Under the pieces are notes generated by a model. The model was not told where the DNA came from. It made no database searches and worked only from the letters and a program-made list of their open reading frames with translations. 64,000 bases of DNA from Clostridia bacterium (GTDB lineage Bacteria > Bacillota > Clostridia > Christensenellales > CAG-138): NCBI GenBank assembly GCA_017523925.1, contig JAFWVQ010000034.1, forward strand, positions 1-64,000. Direction: 5' to 3'. This document shows, in pieces, positions 23,145 through 61,117 of the stretch. The translations under genes were made by a program, and so were the position numbers. Each line of letters begins with the position of its first letter. Within the stretch, counting starts at the first letter, position 1.

Positions 23145-23176
23145 GCCCGCCGACCTGCTTTCGCAGACCGGCGGGC
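23145..23176 (-). terminator. Terminator of third dockerin gene
   Basis: GCCCGCCGACCTGC (23145-23158) pairs with GCAGACCGGCGGGC (23163-23176) with one mismatch and a TTTC loop; TTGGTTTAGTTT follows on the minus strand. Confidence 0.7.
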
Positions 23177-23211
23177 AATTACCTTATTAAACTGGGTTCA
23201 GGCGCAAAGCC

Positions 23212-24858: not shown

Positions 24859-24908
24859 AGTGTTTCTCTCCTGCATATATTATTTGCGCTTTTATCCTTG
24901 CGAGGTGC

Positions 24909-37005: not shown

Positions 37006-38124
37006 TCACAGCTCGGGGTAGGTTTCGATGATATGCGCCGTCCACGCATCGAGCGCGCTTTGATAGTCCGTTCCGAACGCTTCATCGAAGCTCGCCTGCC
37101 CGAAGCAGAAGCGGCTGAGCGCTTCAAAGCCGTACTTTCCGTCGAGCCAGCCGATGAACGAAGCGGCCATCACAAGGCTAAGATCCTGATCGCCGGAATT
37201 GACCTTGTCGGCATATTTGCGCGTATAGTAGCTGCTCGTGAAGAAGCTGACGGGCTTGCTTATCATAGGGCTGCTCCAGCCGTCGAGCCCAAGCTCGAAG
37301 CAGGCGCGGGAGATGACGTCGTACAGAATGCGCATCGATTCGGGGGTCTTGGCATTATCGTCATAGCCCGCTTTGACCGCAGCATCGTAGTAGGGCTCCT
37401 CCGGCGTTATCAACGGGGTGAACTGCAGCATCTCGCCGTAGGGGCAGATGCAGGTGCCGAGGTATTCAGCAAAGCCCATTTGCTCCCAGCCAACGGAATC
37501 GCTGTTTATAAGCGAGCTTATGTAAAGCCGCTCGCGCTCCATGAAAACGCTTGAAAGGGAAAGCTTGAGCTCCTTTACATACAGACCGTCGCCGCCTCCC
37601 AAATAAACGCGAGCGTCCTCCACCCACCAGCCGAACTGCGAATGTCCGAAATCAATTTTCGCGGGCAGCGCCGCGATCTCCGCGGGATAGACCGAAGGAG
37701 CGTTCGAGGAAAGATAATCGCGGATAAAGCCAAGGCTTTTATCGGTTCTGTCGATCATATCCTTGAGCTCTATATCGGTGATTTCGCCGGTGTACACGGT
37801 GGGAACGAACAGATCCGCGTTCATGGTGAAGTCGTCGTCCTCAACCCAAAGGCTTGTGGCATTCCACGCCTCTGCCGGTATATCAAGCTCGGAGTAGCCG
37901 GATGTGCCGCTGATATAAAGGATTTTGTAATCGGATGCATAAGTAAAGTAAAGCGGTCTCGGCGTGGGAGCTTCGGTGGGTGCTTCCGTGGGAGCTTCGG
38001 TCGGCGCCTCGGTCGGAGCCGCTGTCGGCTCATTCGGTATGATCGGCACTATGGGCGTTACCGTGCAGCCGAGAAGCAGAAATGCAAGCAGCAGAGATAT
38101 TGACGATAAAACAAGCTTTTTCAC
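37006..38124 (-). CDS. Lipoprotein of a duplicated pair, gluzincin-like fold without HExxH
   Basis: A 372-residue lipoprotein with a lipobox ending LLLGC (Cys20), a short (TEAP)n stalk and a globular domain. The late region SVGWEQMGFAEYLG resembles the WLxEGxAEYL helix of gluzincin metallopeptidases, and the C-terminus YGFEALSRFCFGQASFDEAFGTDYQSALDAW resembles the tail of such enzymes, but no HExxH motif is found. It may be a catalytically dead peptidase relative. The start is GTG at 38124 behind GAGGTGA. It is clearly paralogous to the gene at 38518-39627; the two share most of the stalk and C-terminal third. Confidence 0.85.
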   Translation of the reverse strand: MKKLVLSSISLLLAFLLLGCTVTPIVPIIPNEPTAAPTEAPTEAPTEAPTEAPTPRPLYFTYASDYKILYISGTSGYSELDIPAEAWNATSLWVEDDDFTMNADLFVPTVYTGEITDIELKDMIDRTDKSLGFIRDYLSSNAPSVYPAEIAALPAKIDFGHSQFGWWVEDARVYLGGGDGLYVKELKLSLSSVFMERERLYISSLINSDSVGWEQMGFAEYLGTCICPYGEMLQFTPLITPEEPYYDAAVKAGYDDNAKTPESMRILYDVISRACFELGLDGWSSPMISKPVSFFTSSYYTRKYADKVNSGDQDLSLVMAASFIGWLDGKYGFEALSRFCFGQASFDEAFGTDYQSALDAWTAHIIETYPEL

Positions 38125-38228: not shown

Positions 38229-38280
38229 GAAATTCCGCAGTAATTTCAACCTCAACTATTCACTATTCAATATTCACTGT
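38229..38280. repeat. Dispersed hairpin + ACTATTC repeat (copy 2)
   Basis: A weaker stem GAAATT...AATTTC (38229-38247) is followed by CTCAACTATTCACTATTC iterations to 38280. On the minus strand it provides the TGA that ends the acetyltransferase fragment. Confidence 0.8.
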
Positions 38281-38500
38281 TTTTCTATCGCCATAAAGAA
38301 GCAGCGATGCGTTTTGCCCCTGTATTCAAGCGTTTCTTCTTCCTCGGCGGGCTTCATCCCGCATTCTTCCATTACGCGGCGGCTGGCGGCGTTTTCCTCG
38401 AAATACCCCGACTTGAGATAGGTATAGCCCATCTCAAAAAGCGCATCTATCGCCGAAAAGAGCGCCTCGCTCGCATAGCCTCTGTTCCAATGCTCCGCTC
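38274..38500 (-). pseudogene. Truncated GNAT acetyltransferase C-terminus (duplication remnant)
   Basis: About 75 codons match the C-terminal end of the fusion protein at 39814-41127 (EHWNRGYASEALFSAI, FEENAASRRVMEECGMK, MAIEKQ-stop), with a few substitutions. The N-terminal acetyl-CoA binding part is missing and the 5' end runs into the 3' end of the lipoprotein gene at 38518. This is the left unit of a tandem duplication; an ATG at 38585 lies inside the lipoprotein gene out of frame and has no ribosome site, so the fragment is probably not translated usefully. Confidence 0.85.
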
Positions 38501-38517
38501 CGATCTCACTCCCGCAC

Positions 38518-39627
38518 TCAAAGCTCGGGATAGATCTCCATGATATGCGCCTTCCACGTAGTGAACGCGGTTTGATAGTCCGCATTGAACGCTTCGTCGA
38601 AGCTCGTCTGCCCGAAACAGAAGCGGCTCAGCGCGTCAAAGCCGTATTCCTTATCGAGCCACGCAACGAACGACACCGCCATACTCATGCTCATATCGTC
38701 GTCGCCGGAATTCGCCTGATCCTCGGGCTTTCTTGAGTAGCCGTAGCCCTCGAATGCTTTAACGCTCCTGCTCTCGCTCGCGCTGCCCCAGCCCGTGAGC
38801 CCGTATTCAAGGCAGCAGCGGGATACGGCGTCAAGATACATGCTCAGTCTTTTTGCGCCGGAGGGCTCGCTTTCGATGCCCGCTTCAATGAGGGCCCTCG
38901 CATAAGGAGAACCCTGATCCTCCGAAATCTCGAGCAGATTGCCGAGCTCCGAATACGGATCGAGGCTTGCGCCGACGTAATTGGCGAATCCGAGCTGCTC
39001 CCAGCCCGCCGAATCGCTGTTTATAAGCGCAAGAATATAATAGAACTCGCGATCCGTAAGAAGGCTGTTTGCCGCAAGACATAAGCCGCGGTGGTAGAGC
39101 CCGTTGCCGCGCCCGATGCAAACGCGCTCATCCTCGATCCACCAGCCCCTCTGCGATTTTCCGCACTGCAAAAAGATATGTTTCTTTGCGATCTGCTCGG
39201 GATAAACGGCAGGGGCATGCGTTGAAAGATAATCGCGAATAAACGCAAAGCTTTTATCGATTGAATCTATAAAGTCGGTATAGGTTATTTCCGTAACCGC
39301 GCCATACGCCTCGGCATAATGATAGAGCGAAGCTTCGAGGGTGAAGTCATCATCCTCAACGATAAGCTTATCGGCATTCGCCGCCTCCTCGGGCAGGAGC
39401 AAATTCGTGTAGTTCGAGCTGCCGCTTATATAAAGCGTTCTCGAAGAGGCGTCATATTCAGCGCTGAGCGGCCTCGGCGTGGGCACGGGGGTCGGCGCTT
39501 CCGTGGGCGCCTCGGTCGGCGTCGCTGTCGGCTCGTTCGGTATGATCGGCACTATGGGCGTTACCGTGCAGCCGAGAAACAGGAATGCAAGCAGCGCGGA
39601 TATCGATGTTAAAACAAGTTTTTTCAT
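38518..39627 (-). CDS. Lipoprotein of a duplicated pair, gluzincin-like fold without HExxH
   Basis: A 369-residue lipoprotein, paralogue of the gene at 37006-38124: same start (MKKLVLTSISALLAFLFLGC), same stalk opening TVTPIVPIIPNEPTA, then a diverged central part and a well-conserved end (YGFDALSRFCFGQTSFDEAF). The WEQLGFANYVG segment is the counterpart of the EGxAEYL-like helix but lacks its Glu, and HExxH is again absent. ATG 39627 follows GAGGTGA. It most likely sits on the outer face of the membrane. Ligand or substrate is unknown. Confidence 0.85.
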   Translation of the reverse strand: MKKLVLTSISALLAFLFLGCTVTPIVPIIPNEPTATPTEAPTEAPTPVPTPRPLSAEYDASSRTLYISGSSNYTNLLLPEEAANADKLIVEDDDFTLEASLYHYAEAYGAVTEITYTDFIDSIDKSFAFIRDYLSTHAPAVYPEQIAKKHIFLQCGKSQRGWWIEDERVCIGRGNGLYHRGLCLAANSLLTDREFYYILALINSDSAGWEQLGFANYVGASLDPYSELGNLLEISEDQGSPYARALIEAGIESEPSGAKRLSMYLDAVSRCCLEYGLTGWGSASESRSVKAFEGYGYSRKPEDQANSGDDDMSMSMAVSFVAWLDKEYGFDALSRFCFGQTSFDEAFNADYQTAFTTWKAHIMEIYPEL

Positions 39628-39747: not shown

Positions 39748-39818
39748 GAAATTCCGAAGGAATTTCAACCTCAACTATTCACTATTCATCATTCACTATT
39801 CACTATTCATTATTCACT
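39748..39818. repeat. Dispersed hairpin + ACTATTC repeat (copy 3)
   Basis: GAAATTCC (39748-39755), GAA loop, GGAATTTC (39759-39766), then CAACCTCAACTATTCACTATTC and five further iterations to 39818. Its end supplies the TGA stop of the NTase-GNAT gene. It is the longest copy in the window. Confidence 0.88.
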
Positions 39819-41127
39819 GTTTTTCTATCGCCATAAAGAGGCAGTGATGCATCCTGCCCTTATATTCAAGCTCCTCCTCATGATCGATGCGCTTCATTCC
39901 GCATTTTTCCATAACGCGGCGGCTTGCGGCGTTTTCCTCGAAATGCCCCGCCTTGAGATAGGTATAGCCCATCTCAAAAAGCGCAGCTATCGCCGAAAAG
40001 AGCGCCTCGCTCGCATAGCCTCTGTTCCAATGCTCCGTGCCGATGAAATAGCCCAGCTCCGCGCGCGTGCCGTCAAGCTCGCAGTCGTTTATAAAGCCGA
40101 TGATCTCACCGTTTTTCAGTGCGATGCCGTAAACGAAGCGGCTCGCGTTTTCGGTGAATTCGCGCATATGCTCAAAGAAGGCGTGTGCAAGCGCCTCGGT
40201 CTCGAGCTCGGGTATCATATAGGTGGAATTCACCCGCGCATCCTTCGCCATTCGGATGAAGCTTTCCCTGTCGCGCTCCTCGAGCGGGCGCAGGATGAGC
40301 CTTTCGGTTTCGATAACGGCGGGCTTGTTTTTGATAATTTTTCTTTCGCGCTCGGAGCGGTTTTCAAGCTCCCTTTCGAGCGCATCGGCATAGCTCTGAA
40401 CCGTGCCGCCGAGCGAAGCAAGCCAAGCCTTCACCCTCTCATCATCCTTATAAGCAAGCGGGTTTTTGCGTATCCCAAGCGTTTTTTCAAGCGGAGCCGC
40501 GTCATCGAAAACGCAGTTTTCAAGCGCCCATTCGCCCGCCTGCGTTTTTGCAATCACATCGCCCGTTTTAAGAGTGTAGATGCACCGCGAAATATCCAGA
40601 AGCCAGCCGCAGGAATAGAGCCTTTCATCGGTCACGTGCGCATATTCGCGGATGCCCTCGTAGTGCCGCCGCACCGCCGAAGCAAGCTCCGCATAATCGG
40701 GAAGCGTGAAAAGGCTTCTGTCCGCGCTCCCGAAAACGCATTTGCCGTATTTTGCAAGCTCATACCGCGCGAATGGGTCTATTTCGCAGTTATCGGTTAT
40801 CCGCTGACCGCTCGTTCCCCAGTACACGAGGCGCTTATACTCGCCGCATCTATACTCCCCGATATTGACGATAACGCCCTCGAAAAGGCGGTAATACGGG
40901 TTCTCCGGCTCCCTTTCCTTCAGCTCCTGCCGAAGCATGAGCAGGTTTTGCGCCGCTTCCTCCGTTATCTCGCCGTTTGAAAAGGCGATGAAGTCGATGT
41001 CGCTCCAGCCGAGGCGAAAATCGCCCATCGTGACGCTGCCGTAGAGCCAAAGGCTGTGCAGCCCGCCGCCGAGCCGCGAAGCGATCTCGGCCGCCATTAT
41101 TTTGACAGAGGGATCCATATCAAGCAC
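39814..41127 (-). CDS. Nucleotidyltransferase-GNAT acetyltransferase fusion
   Basis: A 437-residue two-domain protein. Residues about 1-260 resemble aminoglycoside-type nucleotidyltransferases: LYGSVTMGDFRLGWSDIDF gives the GS (30-31) and DxD (43, 45) catalytic motif, and a DUF4111-like helical domain follows. Residues about 268-437 are a RimJ/RimL-type GNAT acetyltransferase (ETERLILRPLEERDRESFIR, ELGYFIGTEHWNRGYASEAL). Either half could modify an antibiotic or a cellular metabolite. The start is a GTG at 41127 about 10 nt after GGGAGG. A promoter-like TTGTAT-17-TATATT lies around 41160-41190. The C-terminal part is duplicated at 38274-38500. Confidence 0.88.
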   Translation of the reverse strand: MLDMDPSVKIMAAEIASRLGGGLHSLWLYGSVTMGDFRLGWSDIDFIAFSNGEITEEAAQNLLMLRQELKEREPENPYYRLFEGVIVNIGEYRCGEYKRLVYWGTSGQRITDNCEIDPFARYELAKYGKCVFGSADRSLFTLPDYAELASAVRRHYEGIREYAHVTDERLYSCGWLLDISRCIYTLKTGDVIAKTQAGEWALENCVFDDAAPLEKTLGIRKNPLAYKDDERVKAWLASLGGTVQSYADALERELENRSERERKIIKNKPAVIETERLILRPLEERDRESFIRMAKDARVNSTYMIPELETEALAHAFFEHMREFTENASRFVYGIALKNGEIIGFINDCELDGTRAELGYFIGTEHWNRGYASEALFSAIAALFEMGYTYLKAGHFEENAASRRVMEKCGMKRIDHEEELEYKGRMHHCLFMAIEKQ

Positions 41128-41334: not shown

Positions 41335-41363
41335 TTGCGAACGGCGGCATAATTTGATATAAT
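41335..41363 (+). promoter_or_regulatory. Promoter of the cohesin gene
   Basis: TTGCGA (41335-41340), 17 bp, extended -10 TTGATATAAT (hexamer 41358-41363). The leader to the start codon is about 165 nt. The rest of 41128-41533 holds no gene. Confidence 0.75.
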
Positions 41364-41533: not shown

Positions 41534-42679
41534 ATGAAACGAATATTTGCTCTGATACTTTCCCTCGCGTTCGCCGCGGCGTGCATCGCCATGCCCGTTT
41601 CGGCCGCAAGCACCGCAAAAAGCGGCAGCCACGCCGTTTTCAGCGTGCCGGAGGTTTTGGTTCGTCCCGGCGGCACGGTGGACATCCCGCTTTCGATAAG
41701 CGGCAATTACGAGGCGCACGGGCTCACGATCTGGCTCGTTTTCGACAACGATGCGCTGCAGCTCGACGGCTACGCCAACGGCGGCGTTTTGAGCGACGTT
41801 TCCGCGCACGGCGGCACCTTCATCTACGGCGTGAAGGTGGAGAACGGCAAAAACAGCGTCCGCCTCGGCATAATGATGCCGACCGAGCCCTTCAGCGCGC
41901 AGGGCGTGCTGTTCACCACAAGGCTGACGGTCAAGCCCGGCGTTGCCGCAGGCACAGTGCTCGACCTCGAGATCCACCTTCGTCCGAAGGATTTCATCTA
42001 TATGCCGATCGGCGACCATAACGGAACGCCCATCCCCTTCACGCTTTCGCCCGGCAAGCTAACCGTTTCAAACTATGCGCCCACGCCGACTCCCGGCGTT
42101 ACCCCCACGAGCGCACCCGTCACCCCCACTCCCACGCCTATACCGACCTCCACTCCCGTCACGCCCACCGCGCCGCCCTCGAGCGCACCGGCAACGCCCA
42201 CTCCGCGCCCCTCGAGCGCACCCGCAACGCCTACCCCGAGACCCGGCAGCACGGCCGCACCCGCAACGCCGACCCCGAGACCCGGCACCACGGCCGCGCC
42301 CGCAACGCCCACGCCGCCGCCCACGCCCGGCACGGATGCACGCAGCACCGCGCAGCCCGATACGAGCGAATCGCCCGATCCCTTCGCACGCTTCAGCGCC
42401 TCGCCCTTCCCGACGGCGGGCGTATCCCCCACCCCGGGCGGCCCCACCGCGGACCCGTTCGCACGCTTCTCCCAATCCCCCGCTCCGGCGGAAACGGACT
42501 ACGCCCCGCAAACGCCCGCTCCATTTGACACCATACCGCCCACCGGCTACGAGCAGCTTCCCGAGCTGCCCGCCCGAAAGCTTCCCGTCGGCCTCATCGC
42601 CGCGGTGGGCGCAGGCGCGACCGCGCTCGGCGCGGGGCTGGTAATCCTCCTCGTCAAGCGCCGCCGCGACGACGAGTGA
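41534..42679 (+). CDS. Membrane-anchored cohesin-domain surface protein
   Basis: A 381-residue exported protein: signal peptide (1-25, cleavage near VSA-AS); a cohesin-like beta domain (about 34-180) with VPEVLVRPGGTVDIPLSISGN, IWLVFDNDALQLDG, LFTTRLTVKPGVAAGTVLDLEI, matching the cohesin strand pattern; a 160-residue Pro/Thr/Ala linker rich in ATPTPRP units (182-345); and a C-terminal hydrophobic helix ending KRRRDDE. It has KLPVG before the helix but no true LPxTG, so I favour a membrane tail over sortase attachment. It would hold dockerin proteins at the cell surface, like a single-cohesin anchor (OlpA-type). The start has GGAGG 5 nt upstream. It is followed 80 nt later by a dockerin protease. 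Confidence 0.85.
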   Translation: MKRIFALILSLAFAAACIAMPVSAASTAKSGSHAVFSVPEVLVRPGGTVDIPLSISGNYEAHGLTIWLVFDNDALQLDGYANGGVLSDVSAHGGTFIYGVKVENGKNSVRLGIMMPTEPFSAQGVLFTTRLTVKPGVAAGTVLDLEIHLRPKDFIYMPIGDHNGTPIPFTLSPGKLTVSNYAPTPTPGVTPTSAPVTPTPTPIPTSTPVTPTAPPSSAPATPTPRPSSAPATPTPRPGSTAAPATPTPRPGTTAAPATPTPPPTPGTDARSTAQPDTSESPDPFARFSASPFPTAGVSPTPGGPTADPFARFSQSPAPAETDYAPQTPAPFDTIPPTGYEQLPELPARKLPVGLIAAVGAGATALGAGLVILLVKRRRDDE

Positions 42680-42759
42680 CGCGGAGCATCCATTCCGTAT
42701 TACGAGCGGCGGGAGCCGATCCCGCCGTTTGGAATAAAATAAAAATCGGAGGAAAAAAC

Positions 42760-45369
42760 ATGAACTTCAAAAAGCTTCTTTCCCTGCTGATCGCGGCGGC
42801 GCTGCTGCTTGCGATCGTACCCATGGGCTTCTCCGTTTCGGCCGAGGCCGAGGAAAGCCGTGAGGCGCGCATCGAAAAGCTCATCAGCTTTTCCGAGCGT
42901 CTGCACGAGATGGAAAAGCGCAGCGCACCCGAGGTCAACAGGGCCAAGGCGCTGGACGATCCCTTTGCAAATGCGCGCATCATCGTCAAGAGCGCGAAGG
43001 CGCTTGATTACACCGGCTCGATCGACCACGTGAACGGCTATAACGACTGGCATATCATCCAGTACGCCAGCCCCGAGGCCGCCGAAAAGGCCGCAAACGA
43101 ATACAAAAAGCTGGATCACGTTCAGTACGCCGCTCCCGATGCCGTAATGAGCATCACGCAGGAGCCGCACGTGGACTCCTTCCTCTCCTGGGGCTACGGT
43201 CCGAACTACGTCGGCGCATTCAACTACAACGAGTGGCTGCTTGAGGACGGAACGACCGTGGACGAGCTTCCCGAGATCAGGGTTGGCATCATCGACACCG
43301 GCATCGCCGCGAACCATCCCTTCCTCGCGGGCCGCGTTCTGAACATCGGCTATGACTTTGCAAACGGCGACTCCAACCCCGACGACGACCATTACCACGG
43401 CTCCCACGTTGCCGGCACCGTTGTGGACGGCACCCTGCCCAACGTCAAGGTCATCGGCATCAAGGTCATGGACTCCGGCGGATACGGCAACACCAGCGAC
43501 ATCGTGAACGGCTTTGCGTATGCGCATGAGAACGGCTTCCAGGTTGCAAACGCGAGCCTTCGCGGCCCCAGAAACGACGAAAGCTTCGCCCTGTATTCCG
43601 ACGTTATAAACGCGGGCTTCGACGCAGGCACCGTTTACTGCGTTGCATCCGGCAACGACGGCGGCAATGCGATGAACTTCGTTCCCGGCTCGGTCGACCG
43701 CGCGTTCACCGTTGCTTCGCACGGCCGCGGCAAGGCTATGTCCTATTTCTCCAACACCGGCGTCTGCGTTGACATCACCGCGCCCGGCGAGGACATCAAC
43801 AGCTGCGTTCCCGGCGGCGGCTACAACACCCTCAGCGGCACCAGCATGGCGACCCCGCACGTTGCGGCGGCCTGCGCCATGCTCAAGAGCTATTATCCCG
43901 ACCTTGAGTCGGACAACGTGGTTTCCGTTATCAAGGCCGCATCCGTGGACGAGGGTCTTTCGGGCGGCGGCGACGGTCTGCTCTGCGTTACCGACCTGCT
44001 CAAGTACGACGTTTACCTCAACGGCGAGGACACCAATCTGCACTTCACCTCCCCCGGCAATTACCCCTGGATCGTTGAGGGCGGCTCCGTTTACAGCGGC
44101 AACGCGGGCGTGAACAATTCCACCTCCGTGCTCGAGAGCAGGGTCAGGCTCGGCGCCTATCAGCGCATCAGCTTCTCCTACAAGGTATCCTCTCAGCAGA
44201 ACAGCGACATTTTCCGCTTCAAGGTAAACGGCCAGACCGTTTTTGAAACGAGCGGCAGCCTTGATTGGCAGGATGAGTCCTTCGTTATCCCCGACAGCGG
44301 AGTAACTACGCTCACCTGGGAGTTCGTGAAGGACGCTTCGGGCGCGGCGGGCTCCGACAAGGCATGGCTTAGGAACGTGGTTCTTGAAAAGACCGTCAGC
44401 ACCGTTATCAACGACCCCAACTTCGACGATCCGTTCGAATTCATGGACGGCGGCAGCTATCCCTGGATCGTTGACGGCGATGCGGCCAAGAGCGGCAACG
44501 CAGGCGTCAACTCCTCCGTTTCCGAGGTCAGCACGAGCCGCCAGCTCATCGAGGGCATCGCCGTGGCGTTCAACTACAAGACCTCCTGCGGCGCGGGCGA
44601 CAAGCTCGAGTTCCTCGTGAACGGCACCCCCGTTCTGACCGTTACTTCCACCACCGATTGGACCGCGTTTGAATACGAGATCCCCGCGACCGGCGACTAC
44701 ACCTTAACCCTGCGCTACACCAAGGACGGCTCCGGCTCCGTTGGCAGCGACTGCGCGTGGGTCAAGGACTTCAAGCTCTTCTACAGCCTCGCCGGCGCTC
44801 TGAACATTCCCGGCGGCAATCTCACCTTCACCTCCAACGGCACCTATCCCTGGGAGGTTGAGAACGGCTATGCAAAGAGCGGCAACAAGGGCGTTTCGAG
44901 CAGCGAATCCACGCTCATGACCTCCGTTTATATGCGCGAGGGCGACGAGCTCTCCTTCCGCGCAAAGGTCGACAGCGAATCCAACTACGACAAATACACC
45001 TTCACCGTGAACGGCACCAAGCAGTTTGAGCGCTCCGGCTATGTGGATTGGTTCACCTACACCTTCGTTGCTCCGCAGGACGGCAACTACAACTTCGTTT
45101 GGAAATATACCAAGGATTACAGCGTGAACACCGGCGCGGACACGGCGTATCTTGACGATGTTTGCCTCACCTCCGAGTCCGGCATGATGGGCGACAGCAA
45201 CAACAACGGCACCGTTGAGGTTGCGGACGCGCTGCTTGCGATGCGCTTCTCGATGGGTCTCATCGGTGAAAACGACCTCAGCGTGCATAATGCCGATATG
45301 GACGAAAACGGCACCATCTCCATCGGCGATGCGGTGGTCATCCTGCGCACCGCGCTCGGTCTGATGTAA
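42760..45369 (+). CDS. Secreted subtilisin-like protease with YPW modules and dockerin
   Basis: An 869-residue secreted S8 protease: signal peptide (about 1-28); I9-like propeptide (about 65-130); catalytic domain with Asp179 (GIIDTGI), His213 (YHGSHVAGT), Asn299 (ASGNDG) and Ser362 (LSGTSMATPH), so all catalytic residues are intact; three YPW modules (about 420-805; NYPWIV, SYPWIV, TYPWEV); C-terminal dockerin with loops DSNNNGTVEVAD and DMDENGTISIGD. It lacks the FP-x-E tail of the non-protease dockerin proteins. The ATG at 42760 follows CGGAGG; an earlier frame start overlaps the cohesin gene and is rejected. Adjacent cohesin suggests cell-surface docking. Confidence 0.93.
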   Translation: MNFKKLLSLLIAAALLLAIVPMGFSVSAEAEESREARIEKLISFSERLHEMEKRSAPEVNRAKALDDPFANARIIVKSAKALDYTGSIDHVNGYNDWHIIQYASPEAAEKAANEYKKLDHVQYAAPDAVMSITQEPHVDSFLSWGYGPNYVGAFNYNEWLLEDGTTVDELPEIRVGIIDTGIAANHPFLAGRVLNIGYDFANGDSNPDDDHYHGSHVAGTVVDGTLPNVKVIGIKVMDSGGYGNTSDIVNGFAYAHENGFQVANASLRGPRNDESFALYSDVINAGFDAGTVYCVASGNDGGNAMNFVPGSVDRAFTVASHGRGKAMSYFSNTGVCVDITAPGEDINSCVPGGGYNTLSGTSMATPHVAAACAMLKSYYPDLESDNVVSVIKAASVDEGLSGGGDGLLCVTDLLKYDVYLNGEDTNLHFTSPGNYPWIVEGGSVYSGNAGVNNSTSVLESRVRLGAYQRISFSYKVSSQQNSDIFRFKVNGQTVFETSGSLDWQDESFVIPDSGVTTLTWEFVKDASGAAGSDKAWLRNVVLEKTVSTVINDPNFDDPFEFMDGGSYPWIVDGDAAKSGNAGVNSSVSEVSTSRQLIEGIAVAFNYKTSCGAGDKLEFLVNGTPVLTVTSTTDWTAFEYEIPATGDYTLTLRYTKDGSGSVGSDCAWVKDFKLFYSLAGALNIPGGNLTFTSNGTYPWEVENGYAKSGNKGVSSSESTLMTSVYMREGDELSFRAKVDSESNYDKYTFTVNGTKQFERSGYVDWFTYTFVAPQDGNYNFVWKYTKDYSVNTGADTAYLDDVCLTSESGMMGDSNNNGTVEVADALLAMRFSMGLIGENDLSVHNADMDENGTISIGDAVVILRTALGLM

Positions 45370-45497: not shown

Positions 45498-45538
45498 CGC
45501 GGGGAAACCGGTGCTTCGGTTTCTCCGCGATGTTTTTT
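45498..45538 (+). terminator. Terminator of the first dockerin protease
   Basis: CGCGGGGAAACCG pairs with CGGTTTCTCCGCG (one mismatch) between 45498 and 45529 and is followed by TGTTTTTT. Confidence 0.85.
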
Positions 45539-45604
45539 GCGTTTTCCACGATTTGTTGTAATATTATAATAAAGGACCCGAAATTACTGAAAAGGAGTGC
45601 AGAA

Positions 45605-48544
45605 ATGAACAAAATGCTCAAAAGATCGCTCTCGGTGCTCGTTGCCCTCGCGATGCTGCTTTCATCGTTTGGCTTCATCCCAAGCGGGAATGCGCGCCAT
45701 GAGGACGGCGGGCAGGTCGAGATCGCGGAGGAAAATGCGCCGCGCATCGAAAGGGCGCAGGATGATATCGTGAATATCATCGTTAAGCTCGAGGATGTGC
45801 CGGCTCTCGCCGTTTCGGGCGAAAACGCTCTTCGCGCAAGCGCGCGTGAGGCGCTTAAAAGCAAGCAGACCGCGCTTGTAAGCGAGATCGGCGCGCGCTT
45901 TATGCACGGCGAGCTTAAAACGCTTTACCGCTATACGGACACCTTCAACGGCTTCGCTTTTTCGGGCGAATACCGCCTTATCGACGAGATCAAGAAGCTT
46001 TCCGGCGTTGCCGACTGCTATGAAAGCTGGAGCTACGCGCTTCCCGAGATGCCCAAGGGCGAAAATGAGCATGAGAAGCTCGGCACCTCCGTCGGCTTCA
46101 TCAATGCGGACGATATGTGGGCTCTGGGCTACACCGGACAGGGCAAGACCGTTGCCGTTATCGACACGGGCATAACCGGGGATCATCCCGCGTTCACCGC
46201 CGCGCCCGATAGCCCGCATTTCACGGTCTCTTCGCTTCAGAGCCTGCTCGACTCCGAGGAGCTGCTCGCCGAGCAGAAGTTTTCCGGAACTCTCACCGCG
46301 CAGGAGCTCTATTACAGCGCGAAGATCCCCTTTGCCTTCAACTATTATCTCGGCAATACCGACGCTTCCCACAATACCGCCTATAACGACCACGGAACGC
46401 ACGTAAGCTCCATCGCGGCCGGAAACAGCGAGCTTTGCCGCGGCGTTGCGTACAACGCGCAGATAATCGCGATGCAGGTCTTCCGCGGGATCGACGCGGA
46501 TTGGGTGGATATCCTTGCAGCGCTCGAGGACTGCGCGCATCTGCACGTGGACGTGCTGAATATGAGCCTCGGCGCGGACTGCGGCTTCTCGCATGATGAC
46601 GATATGCAGCAGGTCATCGACCTTTTGAGCGCAAGCGGCGTGAACTGCGCCGTTGCCTCGGGCAACAGCGGCACGAGCGGTGCGGGCAATATCTTCAACG
46701 GCACCACGCCCGTTTTCAACGTTGACAACGGCACCACGAACACGCCCGGCACGCTCTCGGCTTCGCTCAGCGTTGCCGCAAGCTACAACGAGGCGGGCGG
46801 CTCCCCCACCACCTATTCGAGCTGGGGCCCCACGCCCGATCTTCGCATAAAGCCCGAGATAATGGCGCCCGGCGATTCCATCTACGCCGCGACCGACCCC
46901 GAGATCGGCGGCAGCGATTACGGCGTTAAGAGCGGCACGAGCATGGCGACCCCGCATATCGCCGGCGGAATGCTGCTTTTAAAGCAGTACGTGGATGCGA
47001 ATTTCCCGAATCTCGATGCAGTCGGCAAGATGCAGATGATAGATTCGCTTCTTATGAGCACCGCAGTTCCCGCGACGAACGGCGGCAAGCCCTACAGCCC
47101 CCGTCAGCAGGGCGCGGGTCAGGCCGATCTCACCGCCGCGATCTCAACGAAGGTCTATATCGACGTTCCCTCCTGCGTTCGCCCGAAGATAGAGCTCGGC
47201 GACGACGACGAAAAGAGCGGCGTGTTCAGCTTCGACTTCGAGCTTGTTAACTTCGGCTCCTCCGCCAAGACATACACCGTTCGCTCCAGCGTGCTGACCG
47301 AGGAAACGAGCTTCTGGCTTATAAACAACAGGCTTCAAACCATCATGAACCACGCGAGCGAGGACATCACGAGCTTCGTGAACGTGACCGCGCCTTCGAG
47401 CGTCACGGTTCCCGCGAACGGCAGAACGAGCGTCAGCGTTACGATCGATCTTGCGGGCTACAAGCAGCAGCTCGACTCCACCTTCCCGGTCGGCATCTAT
47501 ATCGACGGCTTCATAATGCTGGACGGCGAGGTCGACCTCTCCGTTCCGTTCCTCGGCTTCTACGGCGATTGGGAGTACGCCTCGGTTTTCGACCGCACCT
47601 GCTATTACGACCGTTACCTCGGTATGCCCGAATGGACGGCGCAGTGGGGCAGCAACCGCGCAGGCTCGTACATCGGCTATGAATCCGTCAACTTCGGCGT
47701 GAACCCCTTCGGCGCGACCACGAACTTCCTGCTCGACCGCGCCTCGATCAGCCCGAACGGGGACGGCAGGATGGACGCGATCAGCCTTGTTCACGTCTAC
47801 ATGCTTCGCAACGTCGAGACCTTCCGCTACGAGGTGGAGAACGCCGCGACCGGTGAAAACTACTACACCAAGGAGATCCCCTACGTCACCAAGGCGGTCA
47901 AAAACACCTTCGTGAGCTTCTATCAGCCCGTCGGCGCGGAGGAATACACGCAGATGGATCCCTTCTACGGCGACGGCCTTGCGGACGGGACCACCGTTAC
48001 GCTTCGCATGACGGGCATCATGCAGAGCTATGATGAATTCGACCCCGCCGCGAACGAGAACGCGATCTGGGAGATCCCCGTAACGATCGACCGCACCGCA
48101 CCGCATATCGTAAGTTCGAGCCTTGAAAACGGCGCGCTCTCGCTCCGCGTTACGGATGAGCATTATGCGGCCTACGTCGGCATCTACTCCGACTCTGCCT
48201 GCACGCAGCTCATCGCCGAGCGCGTGATCGAGGAGGATTCGCGCGGCGCCGAGACGGAGCTTAGCTTCAGCGTTGGAAACTCCGCCACGGTTTACGTCAA
48301 GCTCGGCGATTACGCCGCGAATACCGCCGTTATCCGCATCGACGAGGGCAGCGCGCTCGTTCCGGGCGACGCCGATCTGAACGGCAGCGTTTCGGTTGCG
48401 GACGCGGTACTCGCGCTGCGCCACGCGATGGGGCTGAGCGCCCTCACCGGACAGGGCTTTGCCAACGCCGATATGGACGGCAGCGGCACCGTCACCACGG
48501 CCGATGCGATCGTGATACTGCGCATGGCTATGGGGCTGGCGTAA
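45605..48544 (+). CDS. Secreted lactocepin/C5a-peptidase-like S8 protease with dockerin
   Basis: A 979-residue secreted subtilase: signal peptide (about 1-30); I9-like propeptide region (about 50-140); catalytic domain with VAVIDTGI (Asp), NDHGTHVSS (His), ASGNSG (Asn) and KSGTSMATPH (Ser); a long insertion between Asn and Ser typical of lactocepin-type enzymes; Fn3-like beta domains (about 520-860; TVPANGRTSVSVTIDL, SISPNGDGRMDA); dockerin with loops DADLNGSVSVAD and DMDGSGTVTTAD, ending without the FP-x-E tail. The ATG at 45605 follows AAAGGAG by 7 nt. It probably digests host or dietary protein at the surface while docked to a cohesin. Confidence 0.93.
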   Translation: MNKMLKRSLSVLVALAMLLSSFGFIPSGNARHEDGGQVEIAEENAPRIERAQDDIVNIIVKLEDVPALAVSGENALRASAREALKSKQTALVSEIGARFMHGELKTLYRYTDTFNGFAFSGEYRLIDEIKKLSGVADCYESWSYALPEMPKGENEHEKLGTSVGFINADDMWALGYTGQGKTVAVIDTGITGDHPAFTAAPDSPHFTVSSLQSLLDSEELLAEQKFSGTLTAQELYYSAKIPFAFNYYLGNTDASHNTAYNDHGTHVSSIAAGNSELCRGVAYNAQIIAMQVFRGIDADWVDILAALEDCAHLHVDVLNMSLGADCGFSHDDDMQQVIDLLSASGVNCAVASGNSGTSGAGNIFNGTTPVFNVDNGTTNTPGTLSASLSVAASYNEAGGSPTTYSSWGPTPDLRIKPEIMAPGDSIYAATDPEIGGSDYGVKSGTSMATPHIAGGMLLLKQYVDANFPNLDAVGKMQMIDSLLMSTAVPATNGGKPYSPRQQGAGQADLTAAISTKVYIDVPSCVRPKIELGDDDEKSGVFSFDFELVNFGSSAKTYTVRSSVLTEETSFWLINNRLQTIMNHASEDITSFVNVTAPSSVTVPANGRTSVSVTIDLAGYKQQLDSTFPVGIYIDGFIMLDGEVDLSVPFLGFYGDWEYASVFDRTCYYDRYLGMPEWTAQWGSNRAGSYIGYESVNFGVNPFGATTNFLLDRASISPNGDGRMDAISLVHVYMLRNVETFRYEVENAATGENYYTKEIPYVTKAVKNTFVSFYQPVGAEEYTQMDPFYGDGLADGTTVTLRMTGIMQSYDEFDPAANENAIWEIPVTIDRTAPHIVSSSLENGALSLRVTDEHYAAYVGIYSDSACTQLIAERVIEEDSRGAETELSFSVGNSATVYVKLGDYAANTAVIRIDEGSALVPGDADLNGSVSVADAVLALRHAMGLSALTGQGFANADMDGSGTVTTADAIVILRMAMGLA

Positions 48545-48640: not shown

Positions 48641-48802
48641 TTTCTCCCGTTTTCACATTCGTTTTTTTCACACAGGCTTTTCCCCGCTTTGCCATTTTTG
48701 CTTCTTGAAATGCGGCGGCGCATGCACTATAATAGAATATACCAAGCAAGTTTGATTCGGCGGCGCACAGCGTTCCGTTTTTACAGCATAGGAGGAAGCA
48801 GC

Positions 48803-51274
48803 ATGCAAAACGAAAAAACCATCCGCATCTTTATCGGCTCATCGATCACCGACCTTGAGCTTGAAAGAATGAAGCTCATGAGCTTTATTCAGGGCCTGAA
48901 CAACAAGTACCATGAGCGCGGCATCTTTATCGAGGGCTATATCTGCGAGGAAACGCCGAATAATATGCGCTTGGGAGGCTCACAGGTCATGCACAACGAC
49001 TATATAAGCGGCAGCGCGGATGCGACCATCTTCATGTTCTTCCACAAGGCTGGCGAATTCACCATGAAGGAGCTCGAGCTTGCGCGGCAGGCGTTCCTTG
49101 AAAAGGGCAAGCCGAACGTATATGTCTTTTTCAAGGCGGTGGACGGCGCACCCGATATCAACGAAGATATCCAAAGGGCGGTCAGCCTGGTTTTCGATGA
49201 TTACGGCCATTACTATAAGATGTTCGACGACGTGGACACCGTGAAGCTGGAGCTTCTGCAGTTCCTGATGGATAAGCTCAATGGCAAAGGTGAGCTTGTT
49301 ATCAAGGACGGCGCGGTGTATATGAACGGCGAGCTTATTAAGGATATCTCAGCCGCGAATATCTTTGCTTATCAGAATAATCCGAATCTTAAATCGCTCA
49401 AGGAGCAGATCGAGGAGCTTGAAGGCCTACTGCACGAGGCAAACGAGGAGGGCGACGACGGCACGGCGCTCAGGCTCTCGAAGAAGCTGGACGAGCTGAA
49501 AAAGCAGTATGCCGAGCTTGAAGCGGATATCCTCGACACGCTGATATTCTTCTTCGAGCAGAATAAGAAGGGCGGCAAGGCGGACAAGGTGCTTGCCAAG
49601 GCGCTGCGGTATCTCGAGCTCGGCAAGATCGAGATGGCGAAGGCGCTTATCCCTCAGGAGGAGCTGGACAGGATGGCGGAGTCCATCAAGAAGCGCCGCG
49701 CATTGATGGAAGCGCAGCTCCGCGATGAGGAGGAAACGCTGCTTTCGCGCACAAGGGCGAGGATAAAGACCCTTAAGCTCGATCTTGACAACCCGAACCG
49801 CTTCTCCGAGATCGAGCATGCCTATGAAAGCGCATATGAAGCGGCGAAAAGCATCAAGGACTATGACTTTATCTATGATTATGCGGATTTTCTGTATGAT
49901 CAGAAGAACTACCCCAAGGCGATAGGGATCGCCGAAGAGCTTAAGTATATCTATGATGCTCCGAAGCTGAAGGGCGAGATAACCGACTTCGAACGCGGCC
50001 GCCTGCTGAATCTGCTGGGTTTGCTGTACGATGATAACAAGAATCTTCAGAATGTCGAGGCGTTGTTGTTTGAATCGCTTGCGCTTCGGCAGAGCATTTT
50101 CAAGTCTGATTCGACGCCGGATAATGAAGCAAATTTGGCAACGACCTGCAACAACCTCGGCAGTTTCTATGCGAAAAACGACAGGCCGCAGGAGGCGGAG
50201 AAGCTGTTTCTTGAAGCGCTTGGGATAAATAGGCGCCTTGCCGAAACAGTAAGCCGCGAAAGATATGAGCCGGATGTGGCGGGTACCTGCAACAACCTCG
50301 GCAATTCATATAGCCAGCTCGGCAGACCGCAGGAGGCGGAGAAGCTGTATCTTGAAGCGCTTGAGATAAGCAGGCGCTTAGCTTCGACCATAAGCCGCGA
50401 GGCGTATGAACCGGATGTGGCGATGACCTATGTTTGCCTCGGCAATTTATATAGCCAGTTCGGCAGACCGCAGGAGGCGGAGAAGCTGTATCTTGAAGCG
50501 TTTGGGATCTATAAGCGCTTAGCTTCGACCGTAAGCCGCGAAAGATATGAGCCGGATGTAGCGATGACCTGCAACAACCTCGGCCTTTTCTATTCGAAAA
50601 ACGGCAGACCACAGGAAGCGGAGAAGCTGCTTCTTGAAGCGTTGGAGATAAGCAGGCGCCTTGCCGAGACCGTAAGCCGTGAGGCGTATGAACCGGATGT
50701 GGCGGACACATGCAACAACCTCGGCAATCTCTATAAGAATAACGGCAAACCGCAGGAGGCGGGGAAGCTGTATCTTGAAGCGTTTGGGATCTATAAGCGC
50801 TTAGCTTCGACCGTAAGCCGCGAAAGATATGAGCCGAATGTGGCGGGCGCATGCAACAACCTCGGCATTTTCTATGCGCAAAACGGCAGACCGCAGGAGG
50901 CGGAGAAGCTGTATCTTGAAGCGTTGGAGATAAGAAGGCGCTTAGCTTCGACCGTAAGCCTCGAGGCGTATGAGCCGGATGTGGCGACGACCTGCAACAA
51001 CCTCGGCAATTTCTACAAGGATAACGGCAGACCGCAGGAGGCGGAGAAGCTGTATCTTGAAGCGCTTGAGATAAGAAAGCGCTTAGCCGAGACCGTAAGC
51101 CGCGAAAGATATGAGCCGGATGTGGCAATGACGCTGTTCAATATGGGCATATTCTATAAAGCCGAAGGCGATGCCGAAAAGAGTGAGGCCTGCTTCGCCG
51201 AAGCCAAGTCCATCGCCGAGCGCTACAAGGATGTGGCCCCGATCTGCCGACAGATCTATGATAGGCTTTCATAA
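48803..51274 (+). CDS. DUF4062-like (TIR-related) N-terminus fused to long TPR array
   Basis: An 823-residue cytosolic protein. Residues about 5-115 (IRIFIGSSITDLELERMKL ... ADATIFMFFHK ... ELELARQAF ... NVYVFFK) resemble DUF4062, a Rossmann-like domain related to TIR/SEFIR that is often fused to NTPase or repeat domains. A charged coiled-coil (about 195-245) and helical region follow, then from residue 449 seven nearly identical 47-residue TPR units (CNNLGxFY, RPQEAEKLYLEALEI, YEPDVA) and a partial eighth. The ATG at 48803 follows AGGAGG; the longer frame is rejected. It may be a sensor or signalling scaffold; a defence role is possible but unproven. Confidence 0.85.
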   Translation: MQNEKTIRIFIGSSITDLELERMKLMSFIQGLNNKYHERGIFIEGYICEETPNNMRLGGSQVMHNDYISGSADATIFMFFHKAGEFTMKELELARQAFLEKGKPNVYVFFKAVDGAPDINEDIQRAVSLVFDDYGHYYKMFDDVDTVKLELLQFLMDKLNGKGELVIKDGAVYMNGELIKDISAANIFAYQNNPNLKSLKEQIEELEGLLHEANEEGDDGTALRLSKKLDELKKQYAELEADILDTLIFFFEQNKKGGKADKVLAKALRYLELGKIEMAKALIPQEELDRMAESIKKRRALMEAQLRDEEETLLSRTRARIKTLKLDLDNPNRFSEIEHAYESAYEAAKSIKDYDFIYDYADFLYDQKNYPKAIGIAEELKYIYDAPKLKGEITDFERGRLLNLLGLLYDDNKNLQNVEALLFESLALRQSIFKSDSTPDNEANLATTCNNLGSFYAKNDRPQEAEKLFLEALGINRRLAETVSRERYEPDVAGTCNNLGNSYSQLGRPQEAEKLYLEALEISRRLASTISREAYEPDVAMTYVCLGNLYSQFGRPQEAEKLYLEAFGIYKRLASTVSRERYEPDVAMTCNNLGLFYSKNGRPQEAEKLLLEALEISRRLAETVSREAYEPDVADTCNNLGNLYKNNGKPQEAGKLYLEAFGIYKRLASTVSRERYEPNVAGACNNLGIFYAQNGRPQEAEKLYLEALEIRRRLASTVSLEAYEPDVATTCNNLGNFYKDNGRPQEAEKLYLEALEIRKRLAETVSRERYEPDVAMTLFNMGIFYKAEGDAEKSEACFAEAKSIAERYKDVAPICRQIYDRLS
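50147..51133 (+). repeat. Seven in-frame 141 bp tandem repeats (TPR units)
   Basis: TGCAACAACCTCGGC-type starts occur at 50147, 50288, 50429, 50570, 50711, 50852 and 50993, each exactly 141 bp apart (47 codons). Units differ by few bases, showing recent expansion or gene conversion. Confidence 0.95.
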
Positions 51275-56036: not shown

Positions 56037-57614
56037 TCAATTCTCGATGGGGAAGCTGTCGATGAGGCCCATCGCCTTGCGGAGGATGAGCAGAGCGTCG
56101 ATGATGGTGGCTTCGCCGTCACCGTCGACCTCGGCCTGTGCAAGCTCCGCATCGTTGAGCTCGATAAGACCCATCGCATAGCGCAGCGCCATGAGCGCAT
56201 CCGCGGTATCCACGCTGCCGTTGTTGTTCACGTCGCCGATAACGTCGCTCGGCTCGACATCGGCCTCGGGGACCTGAACGTTGTCGATCATGAAGCAGTC
56301 GCCGGGCTTATCGACGGAGCCGTCCTTATGATAGGTCCAGGTTAGGGTATGCTCGCCCGCCGCGAGGGGCTCGGAGGTGAAGAGCTCCCACTCCTCGTTC
56401 TGATAAGCGCCCCAGTAGCCGACGCGCTCACCGTCGATCGCGAATTCGCAGTAATCCCAATAAGTGCTGGTGCCCTCGCCCCATGCTTTGAACTCGAAGG
56501 AAACGACCGCGCCTTCTTCAACGTTCACGGTGGCGGAAAGCACGGAGTTGCTGTTGCTGACGCCCGCGTTGGAGCTCTTAGCGTACAGCCTGCCGTCCTC
56601 ATCTTCAACGCCGACCCAGGGATAGTCGCCCTCGGTCTCGAAGTGGATGTTTCCGCCCTCAACATTCAGCGCAAGGTCGAGATCGATGGGCTCGGTAACG
56701 AAGAAGTCCACGGTCGCAAACACAATCTCGTCCGCCTCGATGGAGATGGGTCCGACATAGGCAGCGTTGCCGTTTACGGTAACGCGCGTATCCTCCGCGA
56801 AGGTGTAGCCCTCGTTCGCGGCGATAACGAAGAACATGAAGTAGCCGTACTGCTCATTGTCGAAAATGTCGCCTTCTTCGAGCATAGCGCCGTCAAGATC
56901 CATTTCCCAGTTCCAGTCGGTGTAGGTGAGCGTGTAGTTCGCGCTCGCGGGAACGGTCACATCGTAGGAGGGAGCTGCACCCCAAACGGGCTCAACGAAA
57001 TTGCTGATGGAAACATTACTGATAACGCTCGGATCGGCCATGCCTTCGATGATCTCGATGTCGATACCGTCCTGGGTGCCGTAAATCGCGGGGGAGAAGA
57101 TGTAGGTATAGCCCGCTTCAAAGGTGTAGTCGTCCGCACGGCCCGGAACGGTGCCGTTATCGGAAGCGATCCAGATGGTGCCGCTGACGGGCTCGGGATT
57201 GGTTATCATGTAGTCGTAGGTGCCGGCGGGAACGGTGATCATAACGGTGTTTTCAACAACGATATGCTGCGCGTTCGCGGAGCAGTCCGCATCCTCGGGG
57301 ATGCTGTACTCAAAGTCCGCATAGCTCGTTCCGTTGTACGGGCCGGTGGCGGAGATGATATCGCCGTATGCGGTAGCATCCGCATCGAGCAGCATCTGAT
57401 AGCCGGTGCCGTCGCCCCAGATATCCTCGGGAACGTTCAGAACTACGGTCGCCTCGTTATCGGCGGGCTGAATGAGCTTTTCCGTTGCCGGAGAGGATTT
57501 CTCGGTTGCCGGAGAGGACTTTGCTTCGTTCCTTGCCTGAGCGAGGCCCGCAGCGGGAAGCATGCTGAGCGCTAAAACGGCAGCAACGATGATGCTGATG
57601 AGTTTCTTGGTCAT
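56037..57614 (-). CDS. Secreted dockerin protein with DUF2436 and YPW modules
   Basis: A 525-residue secreted protein: signal peptide (1-25); short repeat SSPATEKSSPATEK; DUF2436-like module (about 52-195; DIWGDGTGYQMLLDAD, ITVPAGTYDYMITNP, IWIASDNG); WG Ig-like module (about 200-310; EPVWGAAPSYDVTVP); YPW module (about 318-445; DYPWVGV, NAGVSNS, KAWGEG, GEHTLTW); dockerin with loops DVNNNGSVDTAD and EVDGDGEATIID; tail SFPIEN. DUF2436 otherwise occurs between adhesin modules of gingipains, here without them. The second dockerin loop starts with Glu instead of Asp, which could weaken calcium binding. GGAGG is 7 nt before the ATG. Confidence 0.9.
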   Translation of the reverse strand: MTKKLISIIVAAVLALSMLPAAGLAQARNEAKSSPATEKSSPATEKLIQPADNEATVVLNVPEDIWGDGTGYQMLLDADATAYGDIISATGPYNGTSYADFEYSIPEDADCSANAQHIVVENTVMITVPAGTYDYMITNPEPVSGTIWIASDNGTVPGRADDYTFEAGYTYIFSPAIYGTQDGIDIEIIEGMADPSVISNVSISNFVEPVWGAAPSYDVTVPASANYTLTYTDWNWEMDLDGAMLEEGDIFDNEQYGYFMFFVIAANEGYTFAEDTRVTVNGNAAYVGPISIEADEIVFATVDFFVTEPIDLDLALNVEGGNIHFETEGDYPWVGVEDEDGRLYAKSSNAGVSNSNSVLSATVNVEEGAVVSFEFKAWGEGTSTYWDYCEFAIDGERVGYWGAYQNEEWELFTSEPLAAGEHTLTWTYHKDGSVDKPGDCFMIDNVQVPEADVEPSDVIGDVNNNGSVDTADALMALRYAMGLIELNDAELAQAEVDGDGEATIIDALLILRKAMGLIDSFPIEN

Positions 57615-57663
57615 ATTGGTTCCTCCAAATAATGTTTTCGGCGCAGTTTATGTGCGCTTTTAT

Positions 57664-57692
57664 ATTATATCAGCTCATGCTTCGTAATTCAA
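57664..57692 (-). promoter_or_regulatory. Promoter of the sixth dockerin gene
   Basis: Minus-strand TTGAAT (57687-57692), 17 bp, extended -10 CTGATATAAT (hexamer 57664-57669), the pattern shared by the dockerin genes. Confidence 0.75.
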
Positions 57693-57768
57693 GCAGAAAA
57701 AGAAGGAGCTGTCCTCCCGTGCACCGAAAAACAGATTTATTCTCCCCCTTGCAAGGCATAAAAAAGCA

Positions 57769-57825
57769 GAAATTCCCTCGGAATTTCCACCTCAACTATT
57801 CACTATTCACTATTCACTGTTCACT
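57769..57825. repeat. Dispersed hairpin + ACTATTC repeat (copy 4)
   Basis: GAAATTCC (57769-57776), CTC loop, GGAATTTC (57780-57787), then CACCTCAACTATTCACTATTC iterations to about 57825. It lies between a promoter and a terminator rather than at a stop codon. Confidence 0.88.
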
Positions 57826-57834
57826 AAAAGCACC

Positions 57835-57864
57835 CCCGCCGACCTGCTCACGCAGGTCGGCGGG
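57835..57864 (-). terminator. Terminator of the seventh dockerin gene
   Basis: CCCGCCGACCTGC (57835-57847) pairs perfectly with GCAGGTCGGCGGG (57852-57864); GGTGCTTTTAG follows on the minus strand. Confidence 0.8.
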
Positions 57865-57886
57865 AAAAACTAACCATTGTAAATAA

Positions 57887-60800: not shown

Positions 60801-61117
60801 ATATCGCCTTCGACCGCGGTCGCGGTGGTGCTGACGGCGGAAGTGGAGCTGCTGACGCCCGCGTTGCTGCTCTTTGCAGCATCGCCGTCAACTACCCAGG
60901 GGTAGGTGCCCTCGGAAACGAACACGAGCTCGCCTCCGGGAACGTTCAGCGCCTCGTTGAGGTCCGCCGCATCGCGGGTGGATTCACGGGGCATCAGGGA
61001 AGCGGTCGTATTGGGCCGCTCTGCGCCGCGATTTCCATCGCTTGCGAATGCCGCTGCGGGAATGATGCTGAGAACCATCATTACCGCAACGAAGATGCTG
61101 ATAAGCTTCTTAGTCAT
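57887..61117 (-). CDS. Large secreted dockerin protein with YPW, Big2, propeller-like and adhesin modules
   Basis: A 1076-residue secreted protein. Approximate order: signal peptide (1-25); YPW module (55-190; TYPWVV, KAWGEG); Big_2 Ig-like domain (about 195-275; SVPEGRRATVSYEVLP, VATVDANGVVTGVAEGTTTI-type text); a ~220-residue region with repeated short strands suggesting a beta-propeller (about 285-505); InlB-like repeat (about 510-575; AGFEFTGWDYDG); cleaved-adhesin module (about 578-735; FLDQDGDGYNWYW, INVAFRHYNCTD); WG Ig-like module (about 745-855); YPW module (about 870-1000); dockerin with loops DVDLDGEVTTAD and DVTGEGEVTVAD; tail TFPAEEA. No enzyme motif is seen. Its last third is nearly identical to the neighbouring 61402-63037 gene. 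Confidence 0.88.
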   Translation of the reverse strand: MTKKLISIFVAVMMVLSIIPAAAFASDGNRGAERPNTTASLMPRESTRDAADLNEALNVPGGELVFVSEGTYPWVVDGDAAKSSNAGVSSSTSAVSTTATAVEGDIVQFDFKAWGEGSNTYWDKCEFAIDGSVVLSKGAYANVEWEAFTTELTPGEHTLTWSYTKDSSVNPTGDYFAVDNVYVGQPAAAESINVDPVSVPEGRRATVSYEVLPASAYDKSVTFSIADTSIATVDANGVVTGVAEGTTTITVTSAAVPTVSGTATVTVTEALPTVNLEGFATYDMASSGLEGNWIGFADYDPSVAAVLGAMEGDAWAGAFAGGSVYGYIYNEGGGNNFYIMDPETYSVSFTGTNADSVGGVIGMAYNHANQTMYGLSTNREIVTVDLATGVPTVVAPIDNENVLFILAIDQEGNAYTMTSGGNLMALDLTNGSTTLIGSTGLSVNYVQSMTYDFETEKIYWAQIDSASSHGLYVVDPQTASAELLGDIGPGGAEVTSLYIKNDLPIDPIEMPDVTVTFVDGLYSTVLGTQTVEAGTVLDESTFPTAPEHAGFEFTGWDYDGAAVYADTTIRAMYHDPNATIWDFETDPVEQGFTFLDQDGDGYNWYWHVNTGSANLTAHSGDGVAASESFDNDTDMALTPDNWMVTPEFNGSFISFWMQAQDPSYTDDYVGVYVSTDGGETWSDELFGQMTPTAYQQFTIDLSAYAGQTINVAFRHYNCTDMFIALIDDIEVSGGGSEPTDPIVIDTVEIIGLDAPVLGGTPDMDVTVPEDAHYTLTKVEWHTMGKAIIDGDYVITPGTYYVVFEFEPEEGYEFGAVSDTTMIINGGSDLVGLPIFCYSFPELFHMESTEFVVEEPAPAPSLDEALNVEGGELHFESEGDYPWIVVNDEESGRLYAMSGNAGVNSSESILTTTITANAGDVVSFEFQAWGEGTGTFWDYCEFAIDGQRVGYWGAYQNEEWELFTSEPMTAGEHTLTWKFHKDSSVSKPGDCFMVDNVEITEGELPPTGIIGDVDLDGEVTTADALMALRYVMGLIELNEDQLAQADVTGEGEVTVADPLLILRHAMGLIETFPAEEA

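Follow-up and report, generated by a model that had tools for sequence, protein, structure and literature searches.

AncA, a probable membrane-anchored single-cohesin protein encoded before a subtilase-dockerin gene in an uncultured gut lineage of Clostridia

The window, that is, the whole stretch of 64,000 nucleotides of Clostridia bacterium DNA analyzed in this study, carries at 41534-42679 on the plus strand an open reading frame of 381 amino acids (ATG at 41534, stop codon at 42677-42679, GGAGG just 5' of the ATG), the product of which is named AncA here. AncA begins with a signal peptide as read from the sequence (residues 1-25, MKRIFALILSLAFAAACIAMPVSAA; 41534-41608), suggesting that it is exported, and this is followed by a cohesin at residues ~31-185 (41624-42088), a low-complexity Pro/Thr/Ala/Ser linker, also read from the sequence, at residues ~183-350 (42080-42580), which is rich in ATPTPRP and of a kind conserved among the orthologues found in three other species, and, at the C-terminus, a hydrophobic helix followed by a basic tail (LPVGLIAAVGAGATALGAGLVILLVKRRRDDE; 42581-42676). 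A Pfam scan indicated exactly one match of PF00963, at residues 36-141, scoring 24.7 bits where the cut-off is 24.1 (27.1 bits in the scan of the whole genome), no SLH match and no other family at E <= 1, so that AncA contains no dockerin or catalytic domain. The plan given in the preliminary description, consisting of one cohesin, an ATPTPRP linker and a C-terminal helix ending in KRRRDDE, was thus seen in the translation and by Pfam. On the minus strand, 39814-41127 encodes an AadA_C-like nucleotidyltransferase and a GNAT acetyltransferase as one fusion protein, the GNAT part recurs in truncated form at 38274-38585, and two lipoprotein-like genes that are paralogues, each with a PTEAPTEAP linker, lie at 37006-38124 and 38518-39627, the first copy of which was scanned and matched no Pfam family. 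In a related genome (G005), the nucleotidyltransferase and the acetyltransferase are encoded separately, close to this locus.

AncA is followed on the plus strand by two subtilase genes. The first (42763-45369), starting 83 nt after the AncA stop codon, encodes an S8 subtilase (PF00082) with the D-H-S motifs present and a C-terminal dockerin, and the second (45605-48544), located 2.9 kb downstream, encodes a subtilase (PF00082) with fn3_5 and a C-terminal dockerin. The dockerin scores in the whole proteins were 16.8 and 22.1 bits, respectively, at a cut-off of 22.9, and those in the genome scan were 23.0 and 25.5 bits. A profile of the neighbour dockerins and their relatives matched solved dockerins, among them that of ScaB (4uyp, E 4e-12), and a model of the neighbour dockerin (pLDDT 92.6) found dockerins at structural ranks 1-32. 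The earlier designation of the two neighbours as dockerin proteases was thereby confirmed by profile and model. At 48689-51274 on the plus strand, there is a gene for an 861-amino-acid protein with many kinesin-light-chain-type TPRs, the N-terminal region of which had no Pfam match and reads like a DUF4062-type domain.

AncA was found in four genomes representing four species (those of the window, G005, G007 and G008), and it directly precedes the subtilase-dockerin gene in all four, with a gap of 72-83 nt. The second protease gene adjoins the first in the window and G005 only, its place being taken by another gene in G007 and lost to the contig end in G008. The subtilase is also encoded in five further genomes of the genus (49-58% identity), where no cohesin match adjoins it, and the anchor was also absent from the flanks of the protease gene in five more distant records. 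The pairing is thus more recent than the protease around which it formed. Among named records, this protease comes from metagenome-assembled genomes (MAGs), several of them from goat and sheep guts, which are labeled as Clostridia, Clostridiales, Bacillota or Christensenellaceae.

With respect to transcription, a consensus scan indicated a promoter-like site (TTGCGA-17-TATAAT with TG before the -10 element, 10/12 matches) at 41335-41363 on the plus strand, about 170 nt before the AncA ATG, with shuffles yielding 1.4 sites over the whole region. The region between AncA and the first protease gene (42680-42762) contained no promoter-like or terminator-like site in the sequence scan, and it was predicted to form a strong stem-loop with no T-run after it. 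The fold (42677-42765) had a z of -3.2 in the window, -2.6 in G007, -2.4 in G008 and -0.9 in G005, beating shuffles in three of the four species. AncA and the first subtilase-dockerin gene are probably one transcription unit. After the first protease gene, there is a terminator-like hairpin of 14 pairs followed by a T-run (45498-45529, plus strand), which has by far the longest stem among the terminator-like sites of the region, the number of which was not above that in shuffles, and a second promoter-like site (45543-45570, plus strand; 10/12 matches) precedes the second protease gene, which appears to have its own promoter. Hence, the linkage of cargo and anchor previously proposed for both proteases holds for the first, which adjoins AncA in four species in seemingly one transcription unit, but is not supported for the second, with its own promoter-like site and its adjacency limited to the window and G005. 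No Rfam family was matched in the region. Selective RNA stabilization is known for cellulosome operons (reviewed in PMC11557425), and that it could act at the stem-loop between AncA and the protease gene is speculation.

The genome of the window contains 21 cohesin and 84 dockerin matches, and AncA belongs to a cohesin-dockerin system far larger than the preliminary description could show. The cohesins are carried by a protein with 11 of them (C58), one with two (C26), one with three and two Cleaved_Adhesin domains (C29), one with two and List_Bact-type repeats, which is cut by the contig end (C19; L079:3-1787), a protein of 1500 amino acids in which lysozyme and amidase domains and List_Bact repeats precede a Coh-Doc-Coh-Doc arrangement (C34; L076:1873-6375), the cohesins of which form a long branch apart from all other cohesins of the genome, and two single-cohesin anchors, namely AncA (C17) and another (C21). 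Another protein (C60; L091:115-627) begins at a contig edge, shares the repeat of C19 and carries a dockerin; C19 and C60 are possibly halves of one adaptor scaffoldin (cohesin-List_Bact-dockerin) split by assembly. The gene of the C21 anchor (L080:12951-15206) is directly followed by a dockerin redoxin-like gene, and a similar pair of anchor and dockerin genes is present in the genome G006 (L088:9614-11639). Dockerin and cohesin matches were found in each of the ten further genomes of the genus that were analyzed, and similar cohesin-dockerin systems recur across the genus.

The cargo was surveyed by Pfam (E <= 1e-3) in 83 dockerin proteins of this MAG, which is 95% complete. The domains recognized were LRR_4 (13 proteins), Cleaved_Adhesin (13), subtilase (8), Redoxin or AhpC-TSA (7) and DUF2436 (4), together with VWA, FMN-binding, CHAP, CAP, CotH, ricin-lectin or amidase/lysozyme domains in a few, and the dockerin was the sole domain in many. 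No glycoside hydrolase domain was recognized in any of the 83 at this threshold, and the genome-wide search, which covered GH9 and GH5, yielded no match to either. Thus, a multi-cohesin scaffoldin and dockerin proteins, as required for a cellulosome, are present (the 11-cohesin C58 and the 84 dockerins), and the Pfam survey found neither the dockerin-bearing plant-cell-wall glycoside hydrolases of a cellulosome nor the dockerin-bearing mucin glycoside hydrolases of a mucinolysome. A description of such a glycoside-hydrolase-free dockerin system of protease, LRR and redoxin proteins was not found in the literature searched, most subscription papers lying outside it. Within the window, large dockerin proteins were also observed in clusters, at 15668-24876 and 56037-62616 on the minus strand; they contain Cleaved_Adhesin (choice-of-anchor J) domains, and one has DUF2436 as well.

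As a whole, these data are best explained, with good confidence, by AncA being a membrane-anchored monovalent cohesin display protein in a cellulosome-like system. An alternative that we regard as unlikely is that AncA, as an anchoring scaffoldin, binds not enzymes but an adaptor scaffoldin by its dockerin, as ScaE or SdbA do. The adaptor-like C34 with its Coh-Doc-Coh-Doc arrangement and the possible reconstruction of a cohesin-List_Bact-dockerin protein from C19 and C60 would suit such a role, but the large scaffoldins lack a dockerin and are equipped with xPPTG wall signals of their own, and the gene that AncA adjoins in all four species is that of an enzyme.

The C-terminus of AncA is ARKLPVGLIAAVGAGATALGAGLVILLVKRRRDDE. 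The translation confirmed that KLPVG is present and LPxTG absent, as had been described. PF00746 scored 13.6 bits on AncA, below its cut-off of 20, and LPXTG_anchor had no match in AncA, whereas it had one in a scaffoldin. At their C-termini, the scaffoldins C58, C26 and C29 have TPPTG or APPTG, a helix and a basic tail, and, judging from these signals, sortase probably attaches them to the wall; neither AncA nor the C21 protein has such an ending. Because AncA lacks the signal with which the scaffoldins end, its C-terminal helix probably retains it in the membrane, without attachment by sortase. Three sortase genes are present in the genome, as the preliminary description suggested checking, but the LPVG signal it had in mind is rejected as a conserved feature, since the AncA orthologues do not keep it. 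It is, therefore, distinctly unlikely that sortase links AncA covalently to the wall by way of an unusual signal, such as KLPVG or an upstream IPPTG: the three sortases, the xPPTG signals of its sister scaffoldins and the IPPTG situated ~20 residues before the helix could be taken in favor of it, but none of the four orthologues has an xPxTG adjoining the helix, the IPPTG is replaced by VPPSA in G005 and missing in G007 and G008, and the Pfam profiles distinguish AncA from the scaffoldin as described above. AncA, accordingly, lacks the LPxTG-like signal directly before the helix that characterizes sortase-anchored scaffoldins of the ScaE/cSca5 type, and by sequence and hydropathy it has the combination of at least one cohesin and a C-terminal transmembrane helix by which non-SLH anchoring scaffoldins are defined (PMC11557425).

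The display reading was also considered in the light of the variation of the cohesin between the sister species G007 and G008. Comparing their anchor genes (L150:3389-4690 in G007 and L149:4615-5925 in G008), we found DNA identities of 97-100% over some 330 bases before the cohesin, 93-100% in most of the linker, with lower blocks, and 39-69% across the cohesin alone, over about 540 bases. The two cohesins are 43% identical as proteins, the range for the other 14 orthologous cohesin pairs being 82-100%. The protease gene exhibited milder mosaic stretches (68-88%), and its dockerin is nearly identical between the two. Hence, it looks as if the anchor cohesin, and among the compared cohesin pairs this one only, has been replaced between the two species, although a chimeric assembly in one MAG may be the source of the difference. 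A donor of the G008 cohesin was sought in 103 genomes of the family without finding a close relative, the best matches being the three other anchors at 42-45%. The G008 cohesin groups with those three in the tree (97/91 support), and all four anchor alleles, that of G008 included, keep AHGLxxWL and RLGxxMP. Across 77 cohesins of the genus, these two segments rank with the best conserved and, by analogy with type I cohesins, would lie on dockerin-facing strands. The confinement of the replacement to the cohesin might indicate that this domain is mainly a variable surface domain selected by phage or host, with dockerin binding being secondary or lost; the retention of the motif strands in all four alleles and the clustering of the G008 allele with the others make this improbable.

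That the AncA domain functions as a dockerin-binding cohesin is in keeping with its fold. A PDB profile search using the AncA cohesin and its three orthologues matched six distinct sequences, all of them cohesin chains, with 6kg8 as the best (E 3e-7). An AlphaFold2 model of middling confidence (pLDDT 65, pTM 0.60, four-sequence alignment; residues 124-155 weak) found cohesins at ranks 1-40 by Foldseek and in the first 32 rows by VIA, with Z from 11.5 down to 8.8, including the OlpA cohesin 3ul4 (Z 10.7) and the ScaE structure 2zf9 (Z 10.3). The profiles and the model thus indicate that the domain is a genuine cohesin of jelly-roll fold, in agreement with the preliminary description, and another Ig-like fold (pilin, CARDB) can be dismissed as extremely improbable, for a pilin, the first non-cohesin in the VIA list, does reach Z about 8.8, but every PDB profile match is a cohesin and cohesins fill the top of both structural lists. 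Furthermore, the complexes 3ul4 and 4uyp were among the best matches for both the cohesin and the dockerin, and the best VIA match of the AncA cohesin was chain A of 4uyp, of which chain B was the best dockerin match. This matching of both modeled partners to one solved complex is suggestive of cohesin-dockerin pairing, without being proof of it.

A private recognition between AncA and the neighbouring proteases was also considered. The presumed recognition letters at dockerin positions 10-11 are VA/IG and VA/TA in the two neighbours, and no special pairing is visible, because these letters are shared with the general pool of dockerins in the genome. The divergence of the cohesin between G007 and G008 with a near-identical dockerin also argues, at the sequence level, against a finely tuned private pair. 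Since the neighbour dockerins resemble the pool and the protease occurs elsewhere without the anchor, the idea that AncA specifically serves the neighbouring proteases is not supported.

Taken together, AncA would be exported via its signal peptide and stay in the membrane by its C-terminal helix, with the linker carrying the cohesin through the cell wall, where the cohesin could bind one dockerin-bearing protein at a time via the usual calcium-dependent interface, as the fold and conserved motifs suggest. The first subtilase-dockerin, with the gene of which AncA is probably co-transcribed, would be its likeliest, not its sole, partner, and, judging from the motifs shared among the cohesins and the likeness of the dockerin sequences, AncA may have access to the whole dockerin pool. 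The scaffoldins with 11, three and two cohesins, ending in xPPTG, are probably attached to the wall by sortase and AncA would reside in the membrane, and therefore membrane and wall display may exist side by side. More tentatively, and with somewhat less than even confidence, the ruminant-gut genus may possess a surface 'proteolysome' without glycan hydrolysis, consisting of subtilases, redoxins, LRR and adhesin-like proteins, with a membrane anchor of exchangeable cohesin; if so, the membrane-held proteins could be rewired between strains by swapping ~0.5 kb. If AncA displays proteases and redox proteins, the cohesin-dockerin principle would be used for surface protein breakdown in an uncultured gut lineage. 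Cellulosome-like assemblies are usually recognized by dockerin-bearing glycoside hydrolases, and an AncA-type system would be missed by a published genome screen because at least one dockerin-glycoside hydrolase fusion was demanded (PMC11557425). The replaced cohesin could also serve as a natural experiment on specificity, in which near-identical strains have the same neighbouring dockerin and two cohesins.

Among known systems, OlpA of Acetivibrio (Clostridium) thermocellus is held by S-layer-homology (SLH) modules. AncA resembles it in having one type-I-like cohesin at the surface, taken to bind enzyme dockerins directly, and in that the OlpA cohesin is among its best structural matches. The OlpA-type plan previously proposed for AncA therefore stands as to one cohesin, a linker and an anchor, but not as to the mode of attachment, which in AncA is a C-terminal membrane helix without SLH. 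OrfX of Ruminiclostridium cellulolyticum is similar to AncA in being a membrane-bound protein with one cohesin, but OrfX is a lipoprotein, whereas AncA has a C-terminal helix and its signal peptide has no recognizable lipobox. ScaE of Ruminococcus flavefaciens is, like AncA, a monovalent anchoring cohesin protein, and differs by its type III cohesin and sortase attachment (PMC4081043). The mucinolysome of Limousia, with 3-6 scaffoldins (up to 12 cohesins), the sortase-type anchor cSca5 and dockerin peptidases, is also a gut cohesin-dockerin system outside plant fibre, but its cargo is built on mucin glycoside hydrolases (PMC12997984), whereas no glycoside hydrolase domain was recognized by Pfam among the dockerin proteins of the AncA genome. 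The same domain plan as in AncA is found in single-cohesin proteins with a C-terminal transmembrane helix from Lachnoclostridium sp. MSJ-17, H. luporum and C. cibarium, and MSJ-17, which has as many as 39 dockerin proteins, is likewise presumed to be non-cellulolytic (PMC11557425). The largest scaffoldin of MSJ-17 has two cohesins, whereas the genome with AncA has an 11-cohesin and other sortase-type scaffoldins, and AncA, unlike these three anchors, is linked to a protease gene. The single-cohesin plan with a C-terminal helix is already known in other Clostridia, and what is unusual in AncA is its setting without recognized glycoside hydrolase cargo, together with the apparent replacement of its cohesin between sister species.
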